A DNA stretch of 64,000 bases from Robiginitalea biformata HTCC2501 (GTDB taxonomy: Bacteria; Bacteroidota; Bacteroidia; Flavobacteriales; Flavobacteriaceae). Location of the stretch: positions 868,001 to 932,000 of the forward strand of contig NC_013222.1 of assembly GCF_000024125.1 (NCBI RefSeq). The letters are read 5' to 3'. Positions 772 through 62,078 of the stretch are shown piece after piece. The notes under the pieces were generated by a model. That model was not told where the DNA came from and made no database searches. It worked only from the letters and a program-made list of their open reading frames with translations. Position 1 is the stretch's first letter. Each line of letters begins with the position of its first letter. The translations under genes and the position numbers were made by a program.

Positions 772-2019
772 ATGGACACGCATTTTGAAATACTGATTGT
801 CGGGGGGGGAACCGCCGGCATCATGATGGCTGCTTCGCTCCTCAAAGAGGACAACAAGCTGAAGATCGGCATCCTGGAACCCGCCGAAACCCATTATTAC
901 CAGCCGGCCTGGACACTGGTGGGCGCCGGCACCTATTCCTATGAGAAAACCGCCCGGCCCATGGCTTCGGTTATCCCGAAAGGCGCCACCTGGCTGCGGG
1001 AGGCTGCCGCTGGTTTCGAGCCTGGAAAGCACGCCGTTACCACGGATGCGGGACATTCATACAGCTACGACTACCTGGTGGTTGCCCCCGGCCTGGTCTA
1101 CGACCTGGAACAGGTCCCCGGCCTGGCCGAAGCGCTCGACAAAGGGGTTGTCTGCAGCAATTATACGGACCCGGAGCACACCTGGAAGGTGCTCCGGGAA
1201 TTTAAGGGGGGCACCGCCCTGTTCACCCAGCCCACCACCCCCATTAAATGTGGCGGCGCGCCCCAGAAGATCATGTACCTGGCAGACAGTTATTTCCGCA
1301 AGTCCGGGGTCCGGGATCGTACAGAGGTGGTTTTTGCCACCCCGGGGACGGTTATTTTCGGTATCCCGGAAATAAAGAAAACGCTGATGGACGTGGTGGA
1401 CAGGAAGGACATCAACTTGCGTTTTGGCTATAAGCTGGTACGGGTAGACGGCCCGAACCAAATTGCCTGGTACGAATTCGCCGACCACGAGAAGGAATAC
1501 AACCACAAGGATATCAAAACAGAACAGGACGGGGAACTTACGGGCATCCATTTCGATATGCTGCACACGGCACCCCCGTCGGCTCCCCCGGCATGTGTCC
1601 GGGATTCGGAGATTGCCAATGAATCGGGATGGGTGGATGTGGACCCGCATACGCTCCGGCACAACCGGTTCCCGAACATTTTCAGCCTGGGAGACGTAGC
1701 CGGGCTTCCGACCGCCAAAACCGGTGCAGCCATCCGCAAACAGGTACCTGTAGTCACGGAAAACATCATGCGGCTGCGGGAGGCGAACATACTGGGATCC
1801 CCTACCTATAATGGCTATTCCTCCTGCCCGCTGGTTACCGACTACGGCAAGATGGTCCTGGCCGAATTTGACTACGATAACAAGTTTACCCCGGACCCGA
1901 AACTCAGGCAGTTGCTGATTTCGGACTCCTCCAAAGAGTCCTGGCGATTGTGGATACTCAAGAAATACGGGTTGCCCTACCTGTACTGGAACAAGATGCT
2001 GAAGGGGAAAGCGGTCTGA
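772..2019 (+). CDS. sqr: Sulfide:quinone oxidoreductase, SQOR-like
   Basis: Membrane-associated flavoprotein of 415 residues that oxidises sulfide and passes electrons to the quinone pool, storing sulfane sulfur as persulfide or polysulfide. The Rossmann glycine motif GGGTAG lies at residues 11-16. The two redox cysteines are visible as TTPIKCGGAPQKIMYL (Cys160) and YSSCPLVTDYG (Cys352). These contexts closely resemble the mitochondrial SQOR type rather than the classical phototroph enzyme. The motif NIFSLGDVAGLPTAKTGAA near 302-320 is the second FAD-binding segment. It is followed, probably as a separate promoter unit, by two YeeE/YedE permeases, and is divergent from sulfite oxidase. An upstream GTAAC palindrome suggests regulated expression. 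Confidence 0.92.
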   Translation: MDTHFEILIVGGGTAGIMMAASLLKEDNKLKIGILEPAETHYYQPAWTLVGAGTYSYEKTARPMASVIPKGATWLREAAAGFEPGKHAVTTDAGHSYSYDYLVVAPGLVYDLEQVPGLAEALDKGVVCSNYTDPEHTWKVLREFKGGTALFTQPTTPIKCGGAPQKIMYLADSYFRKSGVRDRTEVVFATPGTVIFGIPEIKKTLMDVVDRKDINLRFGYKLVRVDGPNQIAWYEFADHEKEYNHKDIKTEQDGELTGIHFDMLHTAPPSAPPACVRDSEIANESGWVDVDPHTLRHNRFPNIFSLGDVAGLPTAKTGAAIRKQVPVVTENIMRLREANILGSPTYNGYSSCPLVTDYGKMVLAEFDYDNKFTPDPKLRQLLISDSSKESWRLWILKKYGLPYLYWNKMLKGKAV

Positions 2020-2098: not shown

Positions 2099-2656
2099 AT
2101 GGACTGGATATATGAACCCTGGCCCTGGTACGTCTCCGGGGCGGCCATCGCACTGGTTATGCTGCTATTGCTCCTTACCGGCAAGAATTTCGGAATGTCC
2201 TCGAACCTGCGCACCCTCTGTACGATGTGCGGCGCAGACAGGAGTACGGAGTTTTTTCGCTTTGACTGGGCCACCCAGAAGTGGAACCTGCTGGTGGTGA
2301 TCGGCGCCGTAATCGGCGGTTTTATCGCCGCCAATTTTATGACCCCGGATGATGCGGTTCAAATTAACCCGGATACGGTAGCCCGGCTGCAGACGCTCGG
2401 GTTTGACAGTGCCGGGGCGGCGTACCTCCCCGACGAACTCTTCTCCATGGAACAATTCACCAACCCGAAATCCATGTTGTTGCTTGCCCTGGGCGGGCTA
2501 CTGGTCGGGTTTGGTGCCCGGTATGCCGGGGGGTGTACTTCCGGGCACGCCATTTCCGGCCTGAGCAACCTGCAATGGCCTTCCCTGTTGGCGGTCGTCG
2601 GGTTTTTTGCCGGCGGGATGATCATGATTTATTTCCTGTTCCCCTTAATTTTTTGA
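2099..2656 (+). CDS. YeeE/YedE family permease, first half-subunit
   Basis: Inner-membrane protein of 185 residues with hydrophobic segments near 12-28, 64-82, 126-142 and 164-184. It carries the family motif [16 protein letters not shown] with Cys146, and a further CTMC pair at residues 41-44. YeeE/YedE proteins move sulfur compounds; the best-studied member imports thiosulfate using conserved cysteines. Here the usual long protein is split into two genes, this one and the next, separated by two bases. Together they probably form one transporter. Position directly after sulfide:quinone oxidoreductase suggests transport of thiosulfate or another sulfane-sulfur compound, though the exact substrate and direction are inferred only from context. 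Confidence 0.85.
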
Positions 2657-2658
2657 CC

Positions 2659-3072
2659 ATGCGCAGTATCCTCTATATTTTGATCGGTATTTTCTTTGGC
2701 ATTACGATGTTTAAATCCGAAGCGGCTTCCTGGTTCCGGATTTACGAGATGTTCCGGTTCGACGCCTTCCACATGTACGGCATTATCGGCACGGCTGTCG
2801 GCCTCGGGGTCCTGATTGTCTGGGCTATTAAGCGGTTTGATATCCGCTCGTTTTACGGGGAAGCCATCGTTTTCCCTCCCAAGGACAAAAGCTTTGCACG
2901 CTACGCGATCGGCGGCCTTATTTTCGGCTTGGGCTGGGCGCTGGCCGGGGCCTGCCCGGGCCCGATTTTTACCCTTGCCGGGGCCGGATTCCTGCCCATC
3001 CTGGTGGTATTCCTCGGGGCCATGCTAGGCACCTGGTTTTACGGCCTGCTCCGGGATAAATTGCCCCACTGA
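2659..3072 (+). CDS. YeeE/YedE family permease, second half-subunit
   Basis: The gene encodes 137 residues starting MRSILYILIGIFFG. An in-frame start further upstream exists but would overlap the previous gene by more than 120 bases, so the ATG two bases after the preceding stop is preferred. Hydrophobic segments lie near 4-18, 40-57, 83-105 and 108-128. The motif GACPGPIFTLAGAG holds the conserved Cys99 of the C-terminal half of YeeE/YedE proteins. It is almost certainly translated with, and assembled with, the upstream half. The next gene begins a different functional block 62 bases later. Confidence 0.85.
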   Translation: MRSILYILIGIFFGITMFKSEAASWFRIYEMFRFDAFHMYGIIGTAVGLGVLIVWAIKRFDIRSFYGEAIVFPPKDKSFARYAIGGLIFGLGWALAGACPGPIFTLAGAGFLPILVVFLGAMLGTWFYGLLRDKLPH

Positions 3073-3134: not shown

Positions 3135-5888
3135 ATGAGAAGGGGATTGCAACTTTTGAGCATGCTGATACTTTTGGGTTGTATGGCCAGGGGTCAGCAA
3201 TTGCGTCCTTCCATCCGGAACTACGGGGTGAATGACTACCAGACCGCAAGCAAGAACTGGGGGCTGGACACGGATAGTAATGGCGAACTCTATGCGGCCA
3301 ACAACAAGGGGCTGCTCCATTTCAACGGGGAGCATTGGGAGCTGTATCGCCTCCCGAACAATACAGTCATCCGGTCAGTGGCCTGTGTTGGAAACAGGGT
3401 CTATACCGGGTCGTACGAGGAATTTGGCTATTGGGAGAAGAATCGGATGGGAATTCTGGAATATACCTCCCTAACCAATCTGATCCGGGACCACACCTTT
3501 ACCAGCGAGGAATTCTGGCAGATCCTGCCCGTAGATGGGGATGTGTGGTTCCGTTCTTTTTCATCGATTTACCGATATGATGGCCGTGCGATCCAGGTGC
3601 TGAACCCACCTTTTGTGGTGACGGCCCTTACCCATTGGAACGGAGACTTATGGATGGCCGGGGGCCATCGGGCGATCTACCAGATACATGAGAATACCTG
3701 GGAACTGGTCCTGGATGACCCCGCCCTGCAAGACCGGGTGATCGCAGACCTCGCCCCCTTTGGGGAGAGTATGCTTATAGGTACCAAGTTGCACGGATGC
3801 TATCGGTTTGACGGGACCCGGTTGACCCCCTTGCCCGAGACGATCAACGGCCCGCTCAGGGAATTCCAGTTAAATCAGATCTACCCGTTGTCCGACGGGA
3901 AGATTGCCTTTGGGACCATCAAGAACGGGGTGTATCTGTACGACAGGAAGTCGGATCAACTTGAAGTGTTCAGCCGGCAGGAGGGCATGCAGAACAACAC
4001 GGTACACGCTTTTGCACAATTCGCCGACCAGTTGTGGGTGGGCCTCGATAATGGGATAGACCGGTTTCACCTGAATAATTATCTCACATTCTATACGGAT
4101 TATTCAGGGGTAGCCGGAACGTCATACGATATGGCATTTCGCGACAGCACGCTGTATCTGGGAACCAACACGGGGGTCTATTATTTTGAAGGCTCCGCCC
4201 TCAGCTTTGTGCCGGGCTCCCAGGGGCACGTCTGGGACCTTCAGGATGTTGGAGATGTCTTACTATGCGGGCATAATACGGGGACTTTTCTCGTTGGCAA
4301 GAACTCCTTCCAGCCCGTGTCGGATTATGCCGGAGGATATGTTATGGCGCGGATTCCCGAATCGGAAGACGAATATATGCAGGGCACATACGTAGGCCTG
4401 GCTAAATTCCGGCAGGGTCCGGACGCCGCCTGGAAGGTAGACTACCTGGAGGGGCTGCAGGAGCCGATTAAATATCTGGCTTTTGAAGATGAGCACACCC
4501 TGTGGGCGGCGCATTCCTATAGAGGGGTGTATCGGATTGTATTAAACGAAAACCGCGACAGCCTGCAGACCGTCCGCAGATTTACCGGGGAGGAATTGCC
4601 AAACATTTACAACGTGCGGTTGTACCGTATCAAGAACCAGATCATCCTGCAGAGTAACGGCAATTGGTTTCGCTATGACCCCATCCTGGACCGGCTAACG
4701 AATTTTGAGGATTTCGAGGCTTTCAGCAACTCGGAATTGCTCTACTTTGATGATGAGCGATACTGGTTTGTGGGAAATACCGGTTCGCGTGTAATCACCA
4801 TTACCGACCTCAAGGAATTTCAGGTTATCCTCGACGACCAGGAACTTCGACGGCGGCTGACCGCAGAATCCGACCGCATTATTAAAAGAAATGATAGTCT
4901 TTACTACATTACCCTGAGGGATGGTTTTGCCCGGCTGAACTTCAATGCCTTTGTCGGGAAATCGAGAGACATGGACCTGCCGGTTCCCGATTTTTATCGC
5001 ATTGCGGATGCACAGGCCCTGCATCCGCTCGATTCGAACCTCACTTTTACCAATCGGATGGGCCGGGAAATCGAAGTAGCGGTAGCTGCGCCCTCCATGC
5101 CCCAGGCGCGATATCAGTACGAACTCAAGGGGCCTGTTCGCCAAAGTGGTATTACCGATAATGGAACCCTCGTGTTTCAGAACCTCCCATATGGACGCTA
5201 TGAACTGGGGGTTCGCACCATTCGGATCGGGAATCAGCGGTCCGAAGCGGCAATCCTGGAATTTTATGTGGAACCTCCCTGGTATTTATCCACCTGGAGT
5301 CTGATACTATACGCAATGATGGGGGTCGGACTTATTTTTGCCGTACGGGTCTATAACCAGAGAAAGTACAATCGGAAGCGAAGAAAACTCGAACAGGAGC
5401 TGCAACGGGAACAGGCGGTCCATCTCGCGCGGTTGGAAAAGGAGAAAATGTCCCGGGAGATCAAGCTGAAGCAAAAAGAACTGGCCAGAAGCACCATGGA
5501 CCTGGCCCGGAATAATGAAATGATCCTCGAGCTCAAGAATATGCTTATGGCCAATAAGGAGTCCTTTGGCAATCGCCCCGGGTACCGGAAGGTTATCAAG
5601 AAGCTGAATAATTCAATTAACAACAAGGAGGATTGGAAGCGCTTTGAGGTAAGTTTCAAGGAATTACACGAGGATTTTTTCGAAAACCTTCTGGAGCAGT
5701 TTCCGGATCTGACGCCAAAAGACTTGCGCCTGTGTGCCTATCTTAAGATGAATCTGGCGTCAAAGGAAATAGCGCCGCTGATGGGGATTTCCGTGCGGGG
5801 GGTGGAGATTCACCGGTACAGACTACGTAAAAAGCTTCGTTTGGACAGCTCTCAAAACATGTCCAATTACCTCATCAAATTCAAATGA
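3135..5888 (+). CDS. Membrane-spanning sensor/regulator: beta-propeller, Y_Y_Y domain, LuxR-type HTH
   Basis: A 917-residue one-protein sensor. An N-terminal signal (LILLGCMARGQ) is followed by a long periplasmic part with repeated propeller-blade-like sequences of the Reg_prop type (about 30-600), then a Y_Y_Y-like beta domain ending in EPPWYLSTW near 713-721. One membrane helix (about 720-738) leads to a basic, glutamate-rich coiled coil (740-800). The C-terminal 60 residues contain LTPKDLRLCAYLKMNLASKE and a helix-turn-helix of LuxR/NarL kind. There is no histidine kinase, so binding outside the membrane must be relayed directly to DNA binding. It sits immediately upstream of susC and probably controls this locus in response to oligosaccharides. 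Confidence 0.88.
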   Translation: MRRGLQLLSMLILLGCMARGQQLRPSIRNYGVNDYQTASKNWGLDTDSNGELYAANNKGLLHFNGEHWELYRLPNNTVIRSVACVGNRVYTGSYEEFGYWEKNRMGILEYTSLTNLIRDHTFTSEEFWQILPVDGDVWFRSFSSIYRYDGRAIQVLNPPFVVTALTHWNGDLWMAGGHRAIYQIHENTWELVLDDPALQDRVIADLAPFGESMLIGTKLHGCYRFDGTRLTPLPETINGPLREFQLNQIYPLSDGKIAFGTIKNGVYLYDRKSDQLEVFSRQEGMQNNTVHAFAQFADQLWVGLDNGIDRFHLNNYLTFYTDYSGVAGTSYDMAFRDSTLYLGTNTGVYYFEGSALSFVPGSQGHVWDLQDVGDVLLCGHNTGTFLVGKNSFQPVSDYAGGYVMARIPESEDEYMQGTYVGLAKFRQGPDAAWKVDYLEGLQEPIKYLAFEDEHTLWAAHSYRGVYRIVLNENRDSLQTVRRFTGEELPNIYNVRLYRIKNQIILQSNGNWFRYDPILDRLTNFEDFEAFSNSELLYFDDERYWFVGNTGSRVITITDLKEFQVILDDQELRRRLTAESDRIIKRNDSLYYITLRDGFARLNFNAFVGKSRDMDLPVPDFYRIADAQALHPLDSNLTFTNRMGREIEVAVAAPSMPQARYQYELKGPVRQSGITDNGTLVFQNLPYGRYELGVRTIRIGNQRSEAAILEFYVEPPWYLSTWSLILYAMMGVGLIFAVRVYNQRKYNRKRRKLEQELQREQAVHLARLEKEKMSREIKLKQKELARSTMDLARNNEMILELKNMLMANKESFGNRPGYRKVIKKLNNSINNKEDWKRFEVSFKELHEDFFENLLEQFPDLTPKDLRLCAYLKMNLASKEIAPLMGISVRGVEIHRYRLRKKLRLDSSQNMSNYLIKFK

Positions 5889-58794: not shown

Positions 58795-59403
58795 ATGGCA
58801 TTTCAACTTCCGAATTTACCCTATGCGTACGATGCGCTCGAACCGCATATCGACGCGCGTACCATGGAAATCCACCATACGAAACACCACAACGGTTATA
58901 CGACCAAATTAAACAACGCCATCGAAGGAACCGACCTGGACGGGAAGTCCATCGAGGACATTCTCAAAAACCTGGACATGGGCAACGGAGCCGTCCGCAA
59001 TAACGGCGGCGGCTACTTCAACCACTCCCTGTTTTGGGAAATCCTCTCCCCGGATGGTGGCGGAAAGCCTTCGGGCGACCTCGCCTCGGCCATCGACGAC
59101 GCTTTTGGGTCATTCGATAAGTTCAAAGAGGCGTTCAGCAATGCGGCAGCTACCCGGTTCGGGTCGGGATGGGCCTGGCTGTGCGTCCACCCGGGAGGTA
59201 AAGTGGAGGTTTGCTCCAGCCCCAATCAGGATAATCCCCTCATGCCCGGTGTGGGATGCGGCGGTTACCCCATTTTGGGCATCGACGTCTGGGAGCACGC
59301 CTACTACCTGAATTACCAGAACCGGCGCCCCGACTACATCGAGGCATTTTTCAACCTGATCAACTGGAGCAAGGTGTCTGAAAATTTTGCCGCACATAAA
59401 TAA
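58795..59403 (+). CDS. Superoxide dismutase, Fe/Mn type
   Basis: A 202-residue cytoplasmic enzyme that converts superoxide to hydrogen peroxide and oxygen. Metal ligands are in [21 protein letters not shown] and [20 protein letters not shown]. The start [20 protein letters not shown] is typical. Residues distinguishing iron from manganese use cannot be judged with confidence. It is transcribed alone, ending in a strong intrinsic terminator. Confidence 0.97.
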
Positions 59404-59463: not shown

Positions 59464-59529
59464 ATGGCTTATCGCGAAATACGGTGAAAATATGCGAGGG
59501 AAATATAGAGAGGAAAACGGGTGCGGACG

Positions 59530-59606
59530 GGAAACAGAAAAGGGCAGAGAAACTCCACCCTTTTCATCCCAAATCTTACCATAAACTTAACCTACTTATG
59601 CTATGG
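59530..59606 (-). ncRNA. Candidate small RNA, tandem copy 1
   Basis: On the minus strand a 39-base conserved element (59606-59568) starts CCATAGCATAAGTAGGTTAA. It runs directly into a hairpin GAAAAGGG/CCCTTTTC (arms 59565-59558 and 59544-59537) with a T-rich tail. Predicted length is about 75 nt. Upstream lies TTG-N19-TAATTTAG (59642-59613), one mismatch from consensus. Copy 1 has a T where copies 2 and 3 have C in the second half, turning CCATA/TATGG into a perfect five-base-pair 5' stem. The element shows no conserved start codon, so it is not a peptide gene. Confidence 0.65.
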
Positions 59607-59612
59607 CAAGTA

Positions 59613-59642
59613 CTAAATTACTGGGATAAAGAGAAATAACAA
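59613..59642 (-). promoter_or_regulatory. Promoter of small RNA copy 1
   Basis: TTG at 59642-59640, a 19-base spacer and TAATTTAG at 59620-59613, against the consensus TTG-N19-TAnnTTTG. The conserved element begins six bases downstream. Confidence 0.6.
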
Positions 59643-59734
59643 AGAAAATTGGTAAATATTTAAGGCTTATCCAGCCGGCGGCCGTGCTCTTTTGCCTCGA
59701 AATTCGGGGTGTGGAAGGGTAAATGGCTGTACAT

Positions 59735-59811
59735 CAATATAAAAAAGGCAAGGTGTTACCCTTGCCTTTTTCCCCAAATCTTACCATGAACTTAACCTAC
59801 TTATGCTATGG
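59735..59811 (-). ncRNA. Candidate small RNA, tandem copy 2
   Basis: The 39-base element lies at 59811-59773 and differs from copy 1 by one base. It is followed at once by a perfect 12-base-pair hairpin (59771-59760 with 59753-59742, loop of six) and TTTTTTATATT. The stem sequence (CCTTGCC-type) is unrelated to those of copies 1 and 3, although the position and strength are kept. The upstream promoter is TTG-N18-TACATTCG (59845-59817). Confidence 0.65.
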
Positions 59812-59816
59812 TCCTA

Positions 59817-59845
59817 CGAATGTAAGCCATGGGTTTTCCATGCAA
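59817..59845 (-). promoter_or_regulatory. Promoter of small RNA copy 2
   Basis: TTG at 59845-59843, an 18-base spacer and TACATTCG at 59824-59817, one base off TAnnTTTG. The conserved element begins five bases downstream. Confidence 0.5.
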
Positions 59846-59976
59846 AAATCATTCGGATGAACGCCGCTTAAAACCGTTGAAATGCACGCCGGGTTGTAGC
59901 TTCTTACGAGGGAGGCATGCACGCCTTGGACATCGTGCGAACTTTCTCCCAGGAGGTACCCCCGGGAGGCGGTTGG

Positions 59977-60054
59977 GGAAAATAAAAAAGGTGGATAAGA
60001 ATCCACCTTTTTTGCCCCAAATCTTACCATGAACTTAACCTACTTATGCTATGG
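59977..60054 (-). ncRNA. Candidate small RNA, tandem copy 3
   Basis: The element at 60054-60016 is identical to copy 2. A perfect 13-base-pair hairpin follows (60013-60001 with 59996-59984, loop AAGA on the plus strand), then TTTTTTATTTT on the minus strand. The -7 box TACTTTAG lies at 60067-60060, five bases upstream of the element. No TTG is present at the expected distance. Confidence 0.65.
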
Positions 60055-60059
60055 CAATC

Positions 60060-60067
60060 CTAAAGTA
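60060..60067 (-). promoter_or_regulatory. Candidate -7 box of small RNA copy 3
   Basis: TACTTTAG on the minus strand, five bases before the conserved element, at the same relative position as the boxes of copies 1 and 2. A -33 TTG is missing. Confidence 0.4.
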
Positions 60068-60115
60068 CAGGGGTTCCCTGCCGGAATCGGAAAAACCCGA
60101 TATTCTGCAGATATT

Positions 60116-60156
60116 ATCGATGAAATGCACAATTTTGTGCATTTCATCGATTTTTT
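60116..60156 (+). terminator. Perfect 17-bp inverted repeat with T-run
   Basis: Arms at 60116-60132 and 60135-60151 (ATCGATGAAATGCACAA and complement) are separated by two bases. Six T residues follow on the plus strand only. It lies just beyond the 3' end of the amidophosphoribosyltransferase gene, upstream of small RNA copy 3. The T-run orientation would stop plus-strand transcription before it enters that gene, while the stem could also protect or end the opposite transcript. Confidence 0.6.
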
Positions 60157-60179: not shown

Positions 60180-62078
60180 TTAGTAAGCGCGCTGGTTTTT
60201 TCCCTCGTGGAAATTGACGAATGCCTGGTTTACCACCCGGTTGCCGCCGGGGGTCGGGTAGTCTCCGGTAAAATACCAATCGCCCAGGTTGTCCGGGCAG
60301 GCTTTGTGCAGGTTGCTGATGGTCTGGTAGATGATCTGAACTTCCGCCCGGATCTCGGGAGGGCTGAGCAATTCGGCAATCTTGTCGGATAATTCCTGAG
60401 TCCTGAACGGGGCGTAGAATTCCTTGACATGGTTAACGGCTTCCCGTTCCGGATTGGCCAGCTGCTCCTTGCATTTTTCGTAGATGCTGTCCACGACGTC
60501 CATGCTTCCCCTTTCCCGGTGCAGCTCCAGGGCAGCCCTGAAGGCGATGAAGTCCTCGAGTTTGGCCATGTCGATACCGTAGCAATCCGGGTAGCGGATC
60601 TGCGGGGCGGAGGATATCACGATAATTTTTCGGGGCCCCAGCCTATCGAGGATCCGCAGGATGCTCTTTTTCAGGGTGGTCCCCCGCACGATGCTGTCGT
60701 CGATTATTGCCAGGTAGTCGCCCTTGTTCACGGAGCCATAGGAAATATCGTATACGTGGGCCACCAGATCGTCCCGGCTGCTGTCCTGGGTAATAAAGGT
60801 CCGGAGTTTGGCATCTTTGATGGCCACTTTCTCAATGCGCGGGCGCACCTCCAGGATGTTGTGCAGCTCCTCGCTGGTGATATCGGGGCCCAGGGCGAGG
60901 ATTTGTTCCTCTTTTTTCTTGTTCAGGTAATTCTGGGCCTCCCGGAGCATCCCCAGGAAGGAGGTTTCCGCTGTATTCGGGATATATGAGAAAACCGTGT
61001 GTTTGATGTCGTGGTCAATGGCTTCGAGGATCTGCGGAAAGAGGAGTTTCCCGAGTTCCTTCCGCTCCTGGTAGATTTCTTTGTCGTTGCCCCTTGAAAA
61101 ATAGATGCGTTCAAAGGAACAGGCTTTTCGCTCCCGGGGTTCCTGGATCTGCCGGATGCGTACATCCCCGTCTTTTTTGACGATGATGGCGTGGCCCGGC
61201 GGCAGTTCCTGAACCTCCTCATAGGCCGTGTTGAAAACCGTCTGGATGGCCGGCCGTTCGGATGCAACCACCACCACTTCGTCGTCGGCATAATGGTAGA
61301 CGGGACGGATCCCGGAGGGGTCCCTCAGGACAAAGGCGTCGCCGTGGCCTAGCAGCCCGGCCATCGCATAACCGCCGTCCCAGTTCTTGGAGGACTTCCG
61401 CAATATCTTGGACACCTTCAGGCGTTCGGCAATCATGGGCGAAGCTTCCATCTTGGTGTATCCCTCCTTCTTGATCTGCTTGTAGATCTTGGCCACCGCA
61501 TCGTCCAGAAAATGCCCGATCTTCTCCATAACGGTAACCGTGTCGGCCAGTTCCTTGGGGTGCTGCCCGAGTTGCACCAGGTTGTCGAACAGTTCGTTGA
61601 CGTTGGTCATGTTGAAATTGCCGGCGACGATCAGGTTTCGGTGCATCCAGTTGTTCTGCCGGAGGAACGGGTGGACGCTTTCGATGCTGTTCTTCCCAAA
61701 AGTTCCGTATCGCACATGGCCCAGGAGCAGTTCGCCCACGTAGGGGATGTTCCGTTTTTGCCACGCGACGTCATTGACGGCTTCCGGGTGCTCCTTTAGG
61801 GAGGTATTGATCCGGGCGTTGATCTGGTCGAAGATATCCTGGATGGGCTGGGACGCATTGGAACGTACGCGGCTCATATAGCGCTCCCCGGGGCGCATGT
61901 CGAGTTTGATGCTGGCGAAGCCCGCCCCGTCCTGCCCGCGGTTGTGCTGCTTCTCCATCATGAGGTACATTTTATTTACCCCATAAAAGGCCGAGCCGTA
62001 TTTTTCCTGGTAGTATTCCAGGGGTTTGAGGAGGCGAATGAGGGAAATCCCGCATTCGTGCTTGATGGCGTCACTCAT
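60180..62078 (-). CDS. purF: Amidophosphoribosyltransferase
   Basis: A 632-residue enzyme making phosphoribosylamine, the first step of purine synthesis. The N-terminal glutaminase domain has the candidate nucleophile Cys9 in HECGISLIRL and the family text KQHNRGQDGAGFAS. The PRPP-binding motif is LAIIDDSIVRGTTLKKS in the C-terminal domain. The protein is longer than the classical enzyme (about 500 residues), as is usual for the flavobacterial form. A -7 box TAATTTTG at 62093-62086 gives an extremely short leader. Confidence 0.9.
   Translation of the reverse strand: MSDAIKHECGISLIRLLKPLEYYQEKYGSAFYGVNKMYLMMEKQHNRGQDGAGFASIKLDMRPGERYMSRVRSNASQPIQDIFDQINARINTSLKEHPEAVNDVAWQKRNIPYVGELLLGHVRYGTFGKNSIESVHPFLRQNNWMHRNLIVAGNFNMTNVNELFDNLVQLGQHPKELADTVTVMEKIGHFLDDAVAKIYKQIKKEGYTKMEASPMIAERLKVSKILRKSSKNWDGGYAMAGLLGHGDAFVLRDPSGIRPVYHYADDEVVVVASERPAIQTVFNTAYEEVQELPPGHAIIVKKDGDVRIRQIQEPRERKACSFERIYFSRGNDKEIYQERKELGKLLFPQILEAIDHDIKHTVFSYIPNTAETSFLGMLREAQNYLNKKKEEQILALGPDITSEELHNILEVRPRIEKVAIKDAKLRTFITQDSSRDDLVAHVYDISYGSVNKGDYLAIIDDSIVRGTTLKKSILRILDRLGPRKIIVISSAPQIRYPDCYGIDMAKLEDFIAFRAALELHRERGSMDVVDSIYEKCKEQLANPEREAVNHVKEFYAPFRTQELSDKIAELLSPPEIRAEVQIIYQTISNLHKACPDNLGDWYFTGDYPTPGGNRVVNQAFVNFHEGKNQRAY

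Follow-up and report, generated by a model that had tools for sequence, protein, structure and literature searches.

Members of the Flavobacteriaceae are prominent in soil, the sea and fresh water, some of them are fish pathogens, and to our knowledge small RNA (sRNA) regulation in this family is little mapped. Among the sibling sRNAs of other bacteria, the Qrr sRNAs share a core and depend on sigma-54/LuxO and on Hfq. The csRNA promoters of Streptococcus each carry a direct repeat for a response regulator, CiaR, which is of the OmpR type.

The nearest published work is that of Guerin et al. (2021), who reported 85 new RNAs in F. psychrophilum (PMC9723704), one of which may be the RNA considered here. 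LytTR-type regulators are described as recognizing two 9-11 nt repeats that lie 11-13 nt apart, and E. coli YpdB as binding a direct repeat of GGCATTTCAT (PMC4847170). Our literature searches found nothing on a flavobacterial sRNA family located between purF and sodA, nor on LytTR direct-repeat binding sites in Bacteroidetes, and within the library searched four strings from the core of the element appeared only in two unrelated papers, on watermelon and Candida.

Three tandem units and their relatives in the Flavobacteriaceae

The window analyzed here is a stretch of 64,000 nt from Robiginitalea biformata HTCC2501. A preliminary description of this DNA had noted a 39-nt element in three minus-strand copies, and we recovered all three at the coordinates it gave; they differ solely at position 24, which is T in copy 1 and C in copies 2 and 3. 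The features of the locus, given in window positions, are as follows.

58795..59403, plus strand: sodA (Fe/Mn superoxide dismutase; Pfam PF00081, PF02777), conserved flank, convergent with the array
59529..59606, minus strand: predicted sRNA copy 1, class III, sodA-proximal; core 59568-59606, terminator 59529-59565, predicted start ~59606
59613..59643, minus strand: putative copy 1 promoter, TAATTTAG (59613-59620) plus TTTG (59640-59643) with a 19-nt spacer, by eye
59734..59811, minus strand: predicted sRNA copy 2, class II, middle; core 59773-59811, terminator hairpin 59742-59771
59817..59824, minus strand: copy 2 -7 box TACATTCG, by eye
59850..59887, minus strand: copy 2 upstream direct repeats TTTCAACGG / GTTCATCCG, 20 bp apart, LytTR-type architecture
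59977..60054, minus strand: predicted sRNA copy 3, class I, purF-proximal; core 60016-60054, terminator hairpin 59984-60013
60060..60067, minus strand: copy 3 -7 box TACTTTAG, by eye
60100..60151, minus strand: copy 3 upstream sites, TGCATTTCATCGAT half-sites with a perfect 17-bp inverted repeat (60116-60151) and a degenerate direct-repeat partner
60180..62078, minus strand: glutamine amidotransferase gene that we take to be purF (Pfam GATase_7 only), conserved flank on the array strand

Copy 1 owes its class assignment to the T at core position 24 together with GGGA after the linker. A 38-nt core pattern matched three times in the window against a mean of 0.00 in 100 shuffles, and the first 23 nt of the core, with up to three mismatches allowed, occur three times across the 3.53-Mb genome, with no match for the reversed control. 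The TAnnTTTG-type boxes reported earlier were seen by eye as TAATTTAG, TACATTCG and TACTTTAG, located 6, 5 and 5 nt upstream of copies 1, 2 and 3, and the TTG at N19 (copy 1) and N18 (copy 2) is likewise present. Every core leads directly into a hairpin and T-run, with a stem of about 13 bp in the window copies. That these stems are unlike in sequence had been noted for the window and proved general: 339 of the 340 full units have a hairpin plus T-run (median 13 bp) with 107 distinct 5' arms, as counted per unit because the A1 alignment misplaces terminator arms.

Our collection, the window included, comprised 151 loci with 353 units, although the loci are not fully independent because some repeat the same contig; 332 of the 340 full units are distinct over 140 nt. 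The purF-like gene and sodA were both found at 111 loci and one of them at 35, with at least one flank at 146 of the 150 non-window loci, a missing flank often being due to the end of the stored stretch. The window's purF-like protein is 94% identical to that of L053, a contig of Robiginitalea sp. SC105. At all 111 two-flank loci the units are, without exception, enclosed by the two genes and share the strand of purF, with sodA on the other strand; none of the 151 loci mixes unit strands. The five loci without a flank in this count are the window itself (absent from the database used), L123 (edge-cut), and L084, L088 and L147, where the copies lie elsewhere. The last three carry single units (at 5243, 4297 and 1501, respectively) that adjoin unrelated genes. 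Because of these three, and because both orientations are matched in 13 of 299 genomes, some copies appear to move.

Fifty of the 151 loci hold a single unit (some are edge-cut) and 101 hold two to six, at a median spacing of 206 nt (n = 202 pairs); the 23-mer search described below gave up to seven matches in one genome among 299. Where classes co-occur they are ordered I, II, III from purF to sodA, most commonly as I-II-III (32 loci) or I-II-II-III (18). The sequence between units diverges, and the promoter and terminator are kept.

The core 23-mer, at up to two mismatches, matched 227 of 299 sampled Flavobacteriaceae genomes, leaving 72 without a match (reversed control, 0); this is a lower bound because the 23-mer misses variants such as those of G431. 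Among good-quality genomes of the family the figure was 204 of 249, and an exact 32-nt pattern was found in at least 120 stretches of GTDB contigs. A covariance model, R1, matched 26 of 196 genomes in a scan of the order, all of them Flavobacteriaceae (at least four Flavobacteriaceae genomes had no match), and 5 of 198 in a scan of the class, namely four Flavobacteriaceae and one chance hit; both scans used stricter filters under which weak matches may be lost. This last hit, the one outside the family (G521, E 0.0027), had neither core nor terminator. On these searches, the element seems restricted to the Flavobacteriaceae and of long standing there. Rfam returned 14 matches at E up to 5, none reaching the gathering score; the preliminary description had not recognized the element either. 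Searches of phage and plasmid records gave just short alignments (E 0.2-0.7) in six phage records and one plasmid record, and no viral contig contained an exact 21-mer pattern.

Positions 0-38 are nearly invariant across the 340 full units, a conservation that is inflated because hits to the 32-nt pattern are bound to agree at 31 of its 32 positions. With divergent members included, AGUAGGUUAAG and AUGGUA(A)GAUUUGGG change least. A 5' hairpin is predicted in the window copies, and some divergent members lack this prediction; among 25 distinct rows, none of its 10 pairs shows a compensatory change, and shuffles score equally well. It is therefore the linear sequence that is conserved. We also considered a peptide starting at a near-invariant minus-strand ATG. 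A 1-nt deletion (GTAAGA to GTAGA) in ~14% of units shifts any frame from this ATG, which makes a peptide unlikely. The preliminary description had come to the same view from the absence of a plus-strand ATG in copy 1; the view stands, and the frame-breaking deletion is the better reason for it. By sequence, each unit thus resembles an sRNA gene, with its own promoter-like box, a Rho-independent terminator and, given the broken frame, no ORF.

Promoters and upstream repeats

The 71 class III units share the upstream consensus CTTTGTTATTTctCaCAATACCAGTAaTTTAG. TTTG is present near -33 in 62% of them; the share is 5% in class I (n = 113), 7% in class II (n = 107) and 10% in the remaining units (n = 49). 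The other classes have a different signature. Repeats of TT[TCA][AG][AT]C at a period of 20/21 bp occur in 157 of the 269 non-class-III units (class I, 56/113; class II, 76/107; other, 25/49) and in none of the 71 class III units. No more than three turned up per class in composition shuffles, and no more than three with six other spacings. In the window, copy 2 has the 20/21-bp repeat and copy 3 shows a degenerate form only.

A 20/21-bp period with a 9-10 nt repeat leaves 10-12 nt between repeats, in agreement with the spacing of LytTR sites. We infer from this architecture that the non-class-III copies are probably under LytTR-type control. The genome encodes seven LytTR proteins, none of them tied to the repeats, and no strict tandem of TGCATTTCATCGAT was found in the genome. 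What is new is that the sodA-proximal copy has its own conserved promoter and that most other copies have LytTR-type repeats instead.

The class I half-site GTGCATTTCATCGAT, at up to two mismatches, occurs 32 times in the G000 genome (reversed control, 0). These occurrences (loci L184-L213; window 60116-60151) sometimes form inverted or tandem intergenic pairs, and may represent a regulon or a repeat motif.

Complements of the linker and RNA-binding partners

Two other small predicted transcripts of Robiginitalea carry the complement of the linker GTAAGATTTGGG, exactly or with one mismatch. They are listed below by locus.

Type A, L289 (~1415-1490, minus strand), L291 (~1464-1540, plus strand), L292 (~1524-1600, plus strand) and L367 (~2395-2464, minus strand): predicted promoter- and terminator-flanked transcript carrying the linker complement
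Type B, L371 (~2150-2230, minus strand), L368 (~2890-2965, plus strand), L369 (~2365-2446, minus strand) and L370 (~2725-2806, minus strand): predicted transcript or leader carrying the linker complement

Each type is found in four of the five Robiginitalea genomes with full site lists. In G000, G681, G191 and G678, type A has yidC on one side and a fasciclin-domain gene on the other; Pfam identified the fasciclin protein of G000 and the YidC protein of G678, and the other flanks were identified by eye. Type B is preceded by CACAACAA-like repeats ~21 bp apart; in G000, G191, G677 and G678 its neighbors are the genes for a LytTR response regulator and for a TPR/HisKA_2 histidine kinase (Pfam for both proteins of G191, G677 and G678; the G000 kinase by eye). 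Instead of being a free RNA, type B could belong to the kinase mRNA as its leader. Within either type the flanking sequence differs and CCCAAATCTTAC stays, with one mismatch in one genome per type. The sites of both types also directly follow promoter-like boxes, in the orientation opposite to that of the sRNA core.

Complementary sites showed no general excess: AACTTAACCTACTTA had 20 sites outside sRNA genes vs 118 for the reversed control, and the linker complement CCCCAAATCTTACC, searched across ten Robiginitalea genomes, had 255 matches, sRNA genes included, against 201 for the control. Family-wide, CCCAAATCTTACD matched 64 of 249 genomes with no excess over the control visible by eye, and the 30 loci inspected from this search yielded no further type A or B, for which reasons we treat the candidate anti-sRNAs as a Robiginitalea-only lead. 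Among the matches listed, 131 distinct linker-complement sites, nearly all from five Robiginitalea genomes, were examined in their surroundings. A strong terminator lies near 8 of these in the sense and 4 in the antisense orientation, and 6 of the 8 sense sites belong to the two recurring loci; L291 and L310 are further members of these, with hairpins seen by eye though unflagged by the script. Of 24 duplex energies between an sRNA copy and a type A or B RNA, 21 were inside the range spanned by 200 shuffles, and some duplexes look strong, such as that of G191 type A with sRNA positions 11-43.

Four linker-complementary sites start 16-17 nt before start codons: L308 356 (G000:C1:2383905, plus strand), L302 359, L317 464 and L318 413. 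Their genes encode a response regulator (L308, Pfam), a TetR-family protein (L302, Pfam) and two others. These candidate targets are attractive singly; start-codon-proximal sites among the 131 numbered 9 sense vs 11 antisense, so we do not claim them. A further set of dispersed, core-antisense-like sites, type C (L290 1453, L293 1497, L294 1488, L296 ~1490, L300 ~350, L334 ~420), has no evident promoter or terminator, and is perhaps attachment-site-like because L293 and L296 adjoin phage-integrase-family genes (Pfam).

We saw no Hfq or RRM_1 chaperone: Hfq was sought in 31 genomes and detected in none (5 of 14 control genomes were positive) and RRM_1 proteins, the family of RbpB, in 0 of the 13 family-f1 genomes searched.

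Function and relation to known systems

The preliminary description had proposed a family of ~75-nt RNAs with an invariant 5' half and separate promoters and terminators. This proposal is supported by the comparison of genomes, through the purF-sodA synteny, the single strand at each locus and the kept signals. On the same sequence evidence, we give a probability of roughly 60% to the reading that the three units are sibling trans-acting sRNA genes with basal and LytTR-raised expression, whose products pair through the linker without Hfq. Each gene would produce a ~75-nt RNA made of the invariant 39-nt 5' region and a Rho-independent terminator. The sodA-proximal copy would supply basal RNA from a sigma-ABfr-type promoter, and binding of a LytTR-type response regulator at the 20/21-bp direct repeats would raise the output of the other copies. 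Base pairing of the RNA would then involve the linker GUA(A)GAUUUGGG(G), perhaps also AGUAGGUUAAG, and in Robiginitalea the two linker-complement transcripts would either titrate the sRNA or be regulated by it.

More tentatively, the array may be part of a core post-transcriptional circuit of the Flavobacteriaceae, in which an ancestral purF-sodA array of a single constitutive copy and further LytTR-induced copies acts without Hfq or RRM proteins and is opposed in Robiginitalea by dedicated anti-sRNAs, one of them inside a LytTR two-component locus. If so, sensor, sRNA and sponge would form a feedback loop.

The strongest competing explanation, to which we give a distinctly smaller share of belief, is that the RNA binds and titrates a protein in the manner of a CsrB- or 6S-like decoy, with the array raising RNA dosage and the invariant sequence serving as the protein-binding motif. 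Near-invariance that extends over almost all of the 5' half, further than a seed usually does, would suit such a motif, as would the frequent presence of several nearly identical copies and the lack of enrichment of complementary sites. Against this reading, the 5' hairpin shows no compensatory change and is missing from the predictions for some divergent members; no candidate protein emerged (RRM_1 being absent from the 13 genomes above), and the anti-linker transcripts fit pairing better. We favor base pairing over titration mainly because the linear sequence stays constant and two transcripts carry its complement.

It is rather unlikely that the family is identical with a reported F. psychrophilum transcript, either Rfp18 or another of Rfp1-89, in which case its expression, and perhaps a role in metalloprotease control, would be known in one species. 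Genus g128, taken as Flavobacterium, has the array at purF-sodA, and Rfp18 is described as widely conserved in Flavobacterium and expressed in F. columnare (PMC9723704). Rfp18 is also described as having at least three stem-loops and pairing via the third, unlike the 75-nt RNA with one terminator hairpin considered here, a comparison made by description only (PMC9723704).

We consider it improbable that the element is a DNA operator, in which a regulator would bind GGTAAGATTTGGG downstream of transcription starts in either orientation. This would also explain the type A and B sites, which directly follow promoter-like boxes in reversed orientation, yet an operator has no need of 39 nt of asymmetric sequence, or of the terminator that directly follows the core in 339 of 340 units. 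That the element is a mobile or selfish repeat, as its frequent multi-copy state and the integrase genes beside L293 and L296 might suggest, is largely refuted, given the fixed place and strand at 111 of 111 two-flank loci, the linked promoters and terminators, and phage, plasmid and viral searches with short chance-like alignments or no match; random placement, named in the preliminary description as the case against an RNA family, thus fails for the great majority of loci.

The sibling sRNA reading makes the element a candidate new Rfam family. A near-invariant RNA at a fixed location, with natural copy-number variation and a clear regulatory split, would offer a tractable entry to sRNA action without the known chaperones.

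Like the RNA proposed here, Rfp18 is a flavobacterial sRNA conserved beyond its own species (PMC9723704). FopS of Bacteroides likewise comprises multicopy Bacteroidota sRNAs, with 14 paralogs at multiple loci (PMC11697453), in contrast to at most seven copies per genome, usually together at purF-sodA, in the present family. FopS is bound by the RRM-1 protein RbpB (PMC11697453), a kind of partner that was not found in the 13 family-f1 genomes searched. The Qrr sRNAs of Vibrio are also siblings that integrate a regulatory signal (PMC11697453); unlike Qrr, the present units have sigma-ABfr-type boxes and LytTR-like repeats, and Hfq was found in 0 of 31 genomes. The csRNAs of Streptococcus, five Cia-dependent sibling sRNAs (PMC11697453), are likened here on grounds other than sequence comparison. 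The YpdB/LytTR target promoters have the same direct-repeat architecture (PMC4847170), and GGCATTTCAT is close to the TGCATTTCAT seen here; the YpdB target is E. coli yhjX, whereas the cognate LytTR regulator here is only putative. The array logic is the distinctive feature of the flavobacterial family.
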